This document shows, one piece after another, positions 13,908 through 17,792 of a stretch of 36,775 bases of DNA. The DNA lies in NCBI GenBank assembly GCA_030444405.1, contig JARFPM010000031.1:1-36775 (forward strand). The letters run 5' to 3'. The notes below the pieces were generated by a model, which did not search any database, was not told the origin of the DNA, and saw nothing but the letters and a program-made list of their open reading frames with translations. This DNA comes from Nitrospira sp. Lineage in GTDB: Bacteria > Nitrospirota > Nitrospiria > Nitrospirales > Nitrospiraceae. The first letter of the stretch is position 1, and each line of letters starts with the position of its first letter. The translations under genes and the position numbers were made by a program.

Positions 13908-14540
13908 CTACGTGGGTCGCATGTGAATTTTGAAAATGACGCGGCGGCTCTTATCTCGGTCGAGGTGACCGGCATCATTGCGTAGCAGGTTCTGTTTTCC
14001 GCGCCCGTTGGCAGTGGCTTTCTGCAAAAAACACTCATAGGCCCAAGGAAGCTTCTCGCGGATCACTTCCAAGCTTTTGGCCAATACTGCAAATGAGCGG
14101 TCCTGACTGAGTCTCAGATTGCGGATATCGTCACCCAGATCGTCGGTGTACCCTTCTATGACAAAGGCTTCCACTTCCTGCTCTCCAGGTCCACAGGTCA
14201 TTGAGGCGTAGTGAGGCATGACCTCGGACAGGAAGGATTCTGCAGTAGGGAGCAACGTACTTTTCCCAAAATCAAAGTTGATCGCCGCATCCGGCACCGT
14301 GATCGTATGGACGCTTGGCCTTTTGGCTTCCCGTGGTGGATGATGTAGGTCAAGTCTCGGCGTCATGGCCATCGTTACGACAGGGCTCCTGGCTTGTTTG
14401 GCATTTCCATCTTCGACTCGAGCCACATAGGCCACAAGCAGTAGGATGAAGATGACGGCGAGCGAGGTCATTAGATCTGCAACACCGCTCGTCACCACGG
14501 TTGAGCTGTCAGGGGAGTCCTGTGCGATGATCGACTTCAT
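13908..14540 (-). CDS. MotB/ZorB-like OmpA-domain protein
   Basis: 210 aa. A short cytoplasmic start is followed by one membrane helix (about residues 20-41) with an aspartate at its beginning (VADLMTSLAVIF, D22), matching the proton-binding Asp of MotB and ZorB. After a linker comes an OmpA-like peptidoglycan-binding domain: AINFDFGKSTLLPTAESFL, then VIEGYTDDLGDDIRNLRLSQDRS. This arrangement is that of a stator B subunit anchored to the cell wall. Its start overlaps the stop of the A-subunit gene by 4 bp, so the two are translationally coupled. It is convergent with ksgA. No flagellar or Tol/Exb gene is near. Confidence 0.85.
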   Translation of the reverse strand: MKSIIAQDSPDSSTVVTSGVADLMTSLAVIFILLLVAYVARVEDGNAKQARSPVVTMAMTPRLDLHHPPREAKRPSVHTITVPDAAINFDFGKSTLLPTAESFLSEVMPHYASMTCGPGEQEVEAFVIEGYTDDLGDDIRNLRLSQDRSFAVLAKSLEVIREKLPWAYECFLQKATANGRGKQNLLRNDAGHLDRDKSRRVIFKIHMRPT

Positions 14541-15775
14541 CTCCTTCGTTCGCTCCGTGCCGTTTCATGTGAAACAAGTGGCTTTCCTGGATTGCTGTCA
14601 TTATCAGCCGGACGTACACGTTCTGTCGTCGCAGTGGCACTGCTCCTGAGTTCCTGAAACATCGCTTCGATCTCTGATTGAGACAGCTGCACTGGTGAGC
14701 ACTGTTCCTTAATCGATCGGTTGAGATCGTGAATCGCTTCCAGCAATGAATTTATCAAGGGTCTTAGCGCCCGCTGGACCTCGTGACCGATCTCCCCCGG
14801 CAAATCATCAAACTTCGTCGTTGAATGTTGTGAATGCAGAGCCGTGAGCGCCTGTGAGGCGGAGTTCAGAGCTGCGACGGTTGGTCCGAGGCGCTGCTGC
14901 ACGACCTCTACAAGCTGATGCGCTGTCTCGTTTTGGATGGGAGCCACTACGGCGCTTGAAGGTCCGTTCGTCGATGAGGAAACCTGGCCAAATTGGTCGG
15001 CGGCTTTCTGAGGAAACATCTCGTCCAGGAGGGAGATGCACTCCCGGTGTCGGTTGCCTAGGCGATGCCAAAGAGAATGTTCGAGGAGAGTGAACGCATT
15101 GGCGCACGCCAGACCGACAATAGATGTGACAAACTTTCCTGACAGCCCGTTGATAAGCCCTTGGATTCCATCGATATCCGACCCATTCGCATGGAGCTTG
15201 CTGAGGCCGATCAGAATGGCCAGGAAGGTGAGCATCAAACCCATACCCGTCATGAAGGCCGGAAGCTGCCTGTAGAAACGGACATTGAGATGGGCGGCAC
15301 AGATGGATTCAAAGGAGAAAAAATCACTTGCAGAGCGCTGACTGTGGACTGTCGGCTCAAGAAACCAGGCAGATTGCTCTACCGCAAGAGTCTTACGATA
15401 CGAAAGCCACTCTCTGGCAAAAACCTGCTCCGACCGTGCCGCACGATCCAATGCCTGCAGGTCGTCAAGGTCGCGTCGCGCTTCCGACGACTTATCAAGA
15501 CCCGCCCGCCTCTTCGCCAAAGCCGGGATGACAAGCCAGTCTTTGGAAACCCGCCGCCGTGCTAGGACCAGAGGTGCAACGGCAGACTGGAACCGCGAAA
15601 GCGTCCGTTGAATTCGTAACAAACTTCGGATGAGCACTGCACTATGCCACAGACAAAGAGTGAGGATCCCCGCAGCACCGATCCAGCTGAACAGAGGACT
15701 CTGAAGCCCGCCGACAACCGTCACGTCACGAGCGAGCAATTCCCAAAGCGCAGTGAACGAATCCATTTCATCCAT
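14537..15775 (-). CDS. ZorA-like (MotA/TolQ/ExbB superfamily) proton-channel protein
   Basis: 412 aa. Membrane helices: residues 29-49, 172-193 (LPAFMTGMGLMLTFLAILIG) and 213-235 (GKFVTSIVGLACANAFTLLE). A long cytoplasmic stretch separates the first two. This three-helix layout, with a loop before TM2 and conserved Thr/Ser in TM2 and TM3, is that of ZorA rather than MotA, which has four. The tail (240-412) is helical (VVQQRLGPTVAALNSASQAL; PLINSLLEAIHDLNRSIKEQ) but much shorter than the roughly 500-residue tail of E. coli ZorA. It forms a two-gene unit with the MotB/ZorB-like gene. Zorya C, D or E genes are absent next to it, so a defence role is only a hypothesis. A MotA- or ExbB-type energiser is the alternative. 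Confidence 0.75.
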   Translation of the reverse strand: MDEMDSFTALWELLARDVTVVGGLQSPLFSWIGAAGILTLCLWHSAVLIRSLLRIQRTLSRFQSAVAPLVLARRRVSKDWLVIPALAKRRAGLDKSSEARRDLDDLQALDRAARSEQVFAREWLSYRKTLAVEQSAWFLEPTVHSQRSASDFFSFESICAAHLNVRFYRQLPAFMTGMGLMLTFLAILIGLSKLHANGSDIDGIQGLINGLSGKFVTSIVGLACANAFTLLEHSLWHRLGNRHRECISLLDEMFPQKAADQFGQVSSSTNGPSSAVVAPIQNETAHQLVEVVQQRLGPTVAALNSASQALTALHSQHSTTKFDDLPGEIGHEVQRALRPLINSLLEAIHDLNRSIKEQCSPVQLSQSEIEAMFQELRSSATATTERVRPADNDSNPGKPLVSHETARSERRR

Positions 15776-16088
15776 CGGACGGACCTACTGAGGGCCAAGC
15801 ACCAATCTCAGGATCAGCACAACTCGATCGTCTCCCTCAACTTCTGTGCCAGAGAGAGGGATGCGAGAAATAGCCGCGCATCGCTACACTGTCGAGATAG
15901 CGTTATATCTCAGAAGGGAAATTCCTGCCGAGTGAGCGGCAAGTTCTGCAGGAATCGGGGAGGCAGGATCTCTGCAGCCGAACTGCCTGTTAGCAAATTT
16001 GTCATCCAGTCGATTGAGAGCCGCTTTTCATGTTATGGTTTGTCTTGAGAGGTGTGAGTTCGGACAATCAGAGGAGGCGGCGATTCCA
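15776..16088. other. intergenic region with an inverted repeat
   Basis: This 313-bp gap separates the divergent ZorA-like and lipoprotein genes. I see no convincing gene in it. It holds an inverted repeat: ATTCCTGC at 15921-15928 and GCAGGAAT at 15948-15955, with a nested GCCG/CGGC pair (15927-15930, 15937-15940), allowing two alternative hairpins. It should contain the promoters of both flanking genes, but no clear -35/-10 pair stands out. A purine-rich AGGAGG lies near 16075, ahead of the lipoprotein. Confidence 0.4.
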
Positions 16089-16433
16089 ATGGGTCTCAAG
16101 ATGGTTCTCGGCCGACTCGCCGGGATTCTGTGTGTGGTGTTATCGGTCACGGGATGTGCAAGCGAATTCTCCGTCCTAGGCGCATCCGGCAAACCTCTTC
16201 TAATTTCGCGTCGAGGTTATTCCCCGGACGAATGTACTGTGAAGGTGAAGGACGATGCCGCTCGCATGGGCGTCACATTGCGGTATATTCATATCCGTGG
16301 CAGCTCCGTGGGCCGTTCGCTGCTATGGCCCTTTGAACCGGGATACGCCTGTGAAGCTGCGATCGGCCCAGAGCAGATCCCAACCGGCGCTTATCCTAAC
16401 AGTCCCAGGATCCTTTTCGAGCCTCATGATTGA
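16089..16433 (+). CDS. small lipoprotein of unknown function
   Basis: 114 aa from ATG 16089, preceded by AGGAGG about 10 nt upstream. The N-terminus is a lipoprotein signal (basic start, hydrophobic LAGILCVVLSV, lipobox VTGC with the cysteine at about residue 23). The mature protein has two further cysteines (DECTVKV and YACEAAIG), which could form a disulfide in the periplasm. No family is recognised. The frame stays open upstream to 15999, but that part lacks a signal and is rejected. Confidence 0.7.
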   Translation: MGLKMVLGRLAGILCVVLSVTGCASEFSVLGASGKPLLISRRGYSPDECTVKVKDDAARMGVTLRYIHIRGSSVGRSLLWPFEPGYACEAAIGPEQIPTGAYPNSPRILFEPHD

Positions 16434-17605: not shown

Positions 17606-17792
17606 TCGAACCACTTTGTACAAATCTGTGTCTTCATCTACTCGTCCCTTGAAAACCCTCGAGGCCGATGGCTCCGTGATCGAGCAAATTCCGGTTTTTC
17701 CAGCGTTTCTGGTTCGTGAATGGTCGGGGCTCTGGCATACCGATTGCGTGCGCAAGTCACTCGACTGCCGTGCCAAAGGTTGGAGGCCAGCT

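Follow-up and report, generated by a model that had tools for sequence, protein, structure and literature searches.

The A and B Genes

A stretch of 36,775 nucleotides from a Nitrospira sp. genome (contig JARFPM010000031.1), referred to here as the window, was found to carry two adjacent genes on the reverse strand, denoted A and B, that lie between a convergent ksgA and a small, divergent lipoprotein gene. Both open reading frames are present as given in a preliminary description of this DNA, and the 4-bp overlap reported there consists of the sequence ATGA, which makes translational coupling of A and B likely. No zorC, zorD, or zorE gene and no flagellar or Tol/Exb gene adjoins the pair in the window, in agreement with the same description. 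Scans for promoters and terminators around A and B scored the real sequence no better than shuffled versions of it. The small lipoprotein-like gene has no match in Pfam, and its conservation tracks the ksgA block rather than the A-B pair. The coordinates of these features, and of the loci used for comparison, are collected in Table 1.

Table 1. Features of the A-B locus in the window and of the comparison loci
Feature	Locus	Position	Strand	Basis or remarks
A protein, ZorA-like motor subunit	window	14537..15775	-	412 aa; PADLOC, Foldseek, AF2 model
B protein, ZorB-like	window	13908..14540	-	210 aa; PADLOC ZorB1, Pfam OmpA
ATGA start/stop overlap of A and B, 4 bp	window	14537..14540	-	sequence
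Short cytoplasmic tail of A (~residues 257-412), predicted mostly helical	window	14537..15007	-	identity, dN/dS
TM2 and TM3 of A, containing the conserved TF (T183) and TS (T217/S218)	window	15060..15280	-	orthologue alignment
Lipoprotein-like gene	window	15999-16433	+	
Complete Zorya I operon	L056	3055-11288		two Nitrospira species (L056, L057, L059)
Complete Zorya I operon	L057	6909-14973		as for L056
Complete Zorya I operon	L059	614-8690		as for L056
Complete Zorya I, near subclade	L183	643-8080		Nitrospirota; closest to the orphan pairs
Complete Zorya I, near subclade	L184	769-7850		as for L183
Complete Zorya I, near subclade	L202	6661-14295		as for L183
TolQ with TolR, TolB, and Pal	L197			profiles
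MotA with MotB	L198			profiles
ExbB with ExbD and TonB	L199			profiles
ZorA1-like frame	L058	1-954		genome G001
B remnant beside ksgA	L193	8073-8456		genome G021
Lytic transglycosylase gene	L049	6919-7683		
Lytic transglycosylase gene	L214	6735-7241		

Sequence Matches and Predicted Structure

Protein A matched the PADLOC profile for ZorA1 with an E-value of 3e-20, the match being confined to the core, and protein B matched ZorB1 with an E-value of 2.7e-33 over residues 12-208 of 210. Judged by these profiles, the resemblance of A and B to ZorA1 and ZorB1 is far above chance. The Pfam OmpA-like domain was detected in B (E-value of 1.1e-7) and the ExbD domain was not, and Pfam MotA_ExbB (PF01618) gave no match to A at E ≤ 1. 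A search of the PDB sequences with A returned only Zorya ZorA chains, and the same search with B returned ZorB and OmpA domains. None of the NCBIfam Zorya cut-offs was reached by either protein (for example, 46.9 bits for ZorA against a cut-off of 100, with B below the ZorB equivalog cut-off), and thus the pair is a divergent relative.

The structure of A was predicted with AlphaFold2 as a monomer, using 28 orthologues (pLDDT of 71). In the model TM1 lies within a helix spanning residues 28-79, TM2 spans residues 165-196, and TM3 spans residues 203-253; a cytoplasmic β-hairpin is formed by residues 130-145, and residues from about 257 or 283 to 385 form a helical tail of low confidence. Additional cytoplasmic β-structure has been named as a hallmark of Zorya proteins (PMC12505986). 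Foldseek placed Zorya I ZorA first (8qyd/8vvn, 1e-7; TM score of 0.72 to 8vvn), followed at lower ranks by TolQ/ExbB at 1e-2 and then MotA at 0.4. The VIA-align Z-score was 17 for ZorA I and 11 for TolQ, and since the unrelated long-helix protein ClyA also scored 11, only the gap above 11 is meaningful; the alignment of A with 8vvn gave a Z-score of 14.8 at 2.7 Å over 199 residues. MotA did not appear among the VIA-align matches listed for A, which by itself proves nothing. The model of B consists of a single transmembrane helix and a short linker, followed by the OmpA-like domain.

The transmembrane motif of B, DLMTSLA, is invariant in the family and contains the aspartate D22. Among the 28 orthologues of A, T183 and S218 are invariant and T217 is nearly so, and these TF and TS residues of TM2 and TM3 are likely to line the channel. 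The paired arginines R199 and R200 of the OmpA domain of B are likewise invariant in the family. In alignments, D22, the Ser/Thr residues, and the OmpA arginines all coincide with the corresponding residues of true Zorya proteins, for which the channel aspartate and the peptidoglycan pocket are required in defense (PMC11890865).

The best profile and fold matches of the pair are therefore to ZorA and ZorB of Zorya I and not to MotAB, TolQR, or ExbBD, and the identity of A-B as a motor is well supported. The preliminary description had proposed, from the letters of the DNA, an orphan ZorAB-like pair with three membrane helices and a short helical tail of about 170 residues in A, and an Asp-containing helix with an OmpA domain in B. 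These assignments are borne out, with a tail of about 160-180 residues. A best match to MotAB, ExbBD, or TolQR, which that description had named as the outcome that would overturn it, was looked for by profile and by fold and was not found.

Comparison with the Zorya Types

The ZorAB complex of Zorya type I (8qyd, 8vvn) shares with the pair the topology TM1-cytoplasmic β-hairpin-TM2-TM3-tail, the channel aspartate within DLM(T/S), the OmpA-like domain, and the gene order A-B. The tail of A is much shorter than the approximately 460 residues of the type I protein, where it comprises residues 236-696 (PMC11890865). The pair also differs from Zorya type I in having no ZorC or ZorD nearby, in a genome that lacks ZorC, and in its near-core distribution. 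The motor core is the same in Zorya type II (8vvi) and type III (ZorA/B/F/G), and a short ZorA is already known from the type II protein of S. kujiense (378 aa). Zorya type II, however, has ZorE, a smaller membrane part, and a longer tail, which in S. kujiense runs to about 280 residues; type III is accompanied by DUF3348/DUF2894 partners. No ZorF (DUF3348) or ZorG was seen adjoining the pair.

Distribution and Mobility

The orphan pair was found in 50 of the 58 genomes of the same genus, in exactly one copy each, and it extends to additional genera within the family and the order. Two orphan pairs were never seen together in one genome. In a search of about 85,000 species genomes the best 80 matches all belonged to Nitrospira and its relatives, where the patterns used were family-specific, such that distant orphans could be missed. 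Two of these records are titled Nitrosospira, apparently through a slip in naming. The Zorya-derived orphan motor is characteristic of the Nitrospirales. Our literature search found no paper on orphan ZorAB in Nitrospira.

Wherever the contig permits, B follows A. Within the Nitrospirales the pair occupies at least eight different gene neighborhoods; the genes beyond B vary with the context, no zorE or other third gene of the unit was found after B, and no recurring neighbor is common to these contexts. The comparison of neighborhoods, which the preliminary description had recommended, thus placed the pair in the constant company of no other motor system. In G009 and G040, ksgA and the lipoprotein gene are separated by ~130-165 bp, versus 2203 bp in the window; this empty site is clean, and the pair of each genome is located elsewhere.

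Some Nitrospira carry a gene for a lytic transglycosylase between ksgA and the lipoprotein gene (L049 and L214), and such a gene lies upstream of A in L049 and L023. A link of the pair to peptidoglycan lysis was considered and rejected, the transglycosylase being incidental, as it is also found at the ksgA site in L214 and L221, from genomes that lack the pair at that position. A link to MltC was likewise set aside: this gene lies near the pair in another context and is usually separated from it by PilZ-like genes on the opposite strand.

The identity of A was found to correlate with that of KsgA, with a rho of 0.80 (n = 34, with 14 discordant genomes set aside) or 0.71 over all 55 genomes. 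In the 14 discordant congeners, A is far more divergent than KsgA predicts, and strictly vertical inheritance is therefore rejected. The correlation, taken together with these outliers, indicates mostly vertical descent within a locus and replacement or transfer between lineages. Carriage by phages or plasmids was also rejected: phage records and viral contigs yielded no copy of the pair, and those plasmid matches that were examined proved to be complete Zorya loci.

The relocation of the pair and its discordance with KsgA also fit a transferable defense unit, and they are the main observation that leaves a role in defense possible. As a stand-alone anti-phage device, the pair would open an ion path when phage entry perturbs the cell wall, and collapse of the gradient would kill or stall the cell with no need of ZorC or ZorD. 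The homology to ZorAB and the retained peptidoglycan-binding domain are consistent with such a device. We nevertheless regard it as unlikely, given a pair present in 50 of 58 species where complete Zorya is found in 2 of 98 relatives, and given that neither viruses nor the examined plasmids carry the pair. In addition, neither ZorAB by itself nor a tailless ZorA confers defense in E. coli for Zorya I/II (PMC11890865; PMC8565338), a result that pertains to E. coli only and to a long-tailed ZorA.

Complete Zorya Operons and the Origin of the Pair

Complete zorABCD operons, confirmed with PADLOC, were found in two of the relatives, two of them in G057 and the other in G053. The three operons listed in Table 1 (L056, L057, and L059) encode a ZorA of 656-666, a ZorB of 240, a ZorC of 550-580, and a ZorD of about 1250 aa, and G057 has the orphan pair in addition to its two complete Zorya I operons. 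Pfam searches for EH_Signature and for PF11828 (DUF3348, ZorF) gave no match anywhere, positive controls included, and a ZorC query that is positive in known genomes was used in their place. This query found ZorC in 2 of 98 relatives, namely G053 and G057, and ZorC is absent genome-wide from the genome that contains the window. A ZorA1-like frame without its N-terminal part was observed at the start of a contig (L058) in G001, which also has an orphan pair; no ZorB, ZorC, or ZorD was seen on this piece.

A tree was constructed with IQ-TREE from the concatenated A core and B (30 rows) and was rooted on one distant ZorAB II, which forms a long branch. All of the orphans form a single clade (support of 100/99). 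This clade lies inside another (100/98) that contains the ZorAB of a near subclade of Zorya I, three loci of which have zorC and zorD (L183, L184, and L202) and two of which are cut by contig ends (L200 and L201). Given the single ZorAB II root, the larger clade is nested among other Zorya I. The nearest single sister of the orphans, L183, is weakly supported (81/66). The B motif of these nearest relatives, TDLMTSLAVIFILLL, is almost identical to that of the pair; the near subclade, a distinct group of complete Zorya I in the Nitrospirota, has the ZorB motif FTDLMTSLAVIFILLL / ITDLMTSLAVIFILLL. Unlike the pair, L183, L184, and L202 possess zorC, zorD, and a long-tailed ZorA of ~612-703 aa. Since the orphans are nested among ZorAB proteins from complete operons, the simplest reading is that the ancestor was likely a complete operon, from which zorC and zorD were lost and in which the tail was shortened.

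Descent from Zorya I, with no effector close by, would also be expected of a split Zorya system in which the pair triggers effectors that are encoded elsewhere in the genome or have given way to unrelated proteins. This arrangement appears quite improbable, because ZorC is missing from this genome by a query that is positive in G057 and G053, the contexts of the pair share no recurring neighbor, and the tail, the presumed transmitter of the signal, is both short and poorly conserved.

Other Stators of the Same Genome

MotAB, TolQR, and ExbBD belong to the superfamily of 5:2 ion-driven motors, of which the pair would be a further member. Three MotA_ExbB proteins were found elsewhere in this genome by profile search, one each with its Tol-Pal, flagellar, and Exb-TonB partners (Table 1), and the A-B pair is a fourth stator-type unit. 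A connection to Tol through a YbgF-like gene at position 17616 was rejected, as this gene encodes a generic TPR protein and the real Tol-Pal cluster is at L197. The shared superfamily and the Foldseek matches to TolQ/ExbB at 1e-2 could suggest a divergent stator kept as a spare for one of these machines, which we hold to be very unlikely, since A lacks a Pfam MotA_ExbB match and fits the ZorA I fold far better, and since TolQR-TolB-Pal, MotAB, and ExbBD-TonB are all encoded separately in this genome, none of whose motor genes of these kinds lies near the pair.

Selection on the Pair and Its Tail

Among close species, dN/dS was determined to be 0.14-0.22 in A and 0.10-0.22 in B. The core of A (0.09-0.13) is more constrained than its tail (0.29-0.44), and the mean pairwise identities are 0.59 and 0.25, respectively. 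The length of A ranges from 384 to 491 aa across the orphan family, and the short tail is a family-wide property.

The preliminary description had also allowed for a relic. The loss of zorC and zorD, the short tail, and a broken B at the ksgA site of G021 could be read as decay of a Zorya operon, but the probability of this is almost negligible: the pair is intact in most species (50 of 58 congeners), is under purifying selection, and conserves its active residues, the short tail is found in the whole orphan family, and the selection data refute a relic for this lineage. The remnant of B in G021 (L193), found with no recognizable A, indicates that loss of the pair does occur at the ksgA locus.

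Proposed Function

We lean toward the view that A-B is an autonomous, peptidoglycan-anchored 5:2 ion motor that derives from Zorya I and serves a role other than defense of the ZorCD type. Such a role is favored by the absence of the effectors, the short and little conserved tail, the near-core presence in single copy, and the purifying selection. By analogy with the known complexes (PMC11890865), five A subunits would surround two B subunits, and ions would flow past a ring formed by D22 of B and the Ser/Thr residues of A, such that A and its short tail would turn relative to B anchored in the cell wall. The pair would represent the ZorAB half of Zorya type I, minus zorC, zorD, and most of the ZorA tail, and the Nitrospirales would have retained it for a function in the cell envelope or in signaling that is independent of ZorC and ZorD. 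Envelope sensing or maintenance is most plausibly that function. The preliminary description had raised the idea of a minimal stator with a use outside the known Zorya defense; among the readings of the pair this one has the best support, although we reach it by inference.

Work on Zorya has treated it as a single machine whose motor senses the phage and whose long tails recruit nucleases. A natural motor that is maintained by selection with a shortened tail and no nucleases offers a direct test of ZorAB acting alone, and annotation of such proteins as anti-phage ZorAB by homology can mislead across a whole order. The finding that most Nitrospira carry the motor half of Zorya without the half that attacks DNA suggests that a defense motor has been put to another use. 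It is plausible, and we advance it tentatively, that the Nitrospirales, which we take to be the environmentally central nitrite oxidizers and their relatives, have turned an anti-phage motor into a stand-alone and nearly universal envelope machine with a function of its own, which would be a fourth stator type alongside MotAB, TolQR, and ExbBD within one cell. If true, this would be an example of exaptation from defense to physiology.
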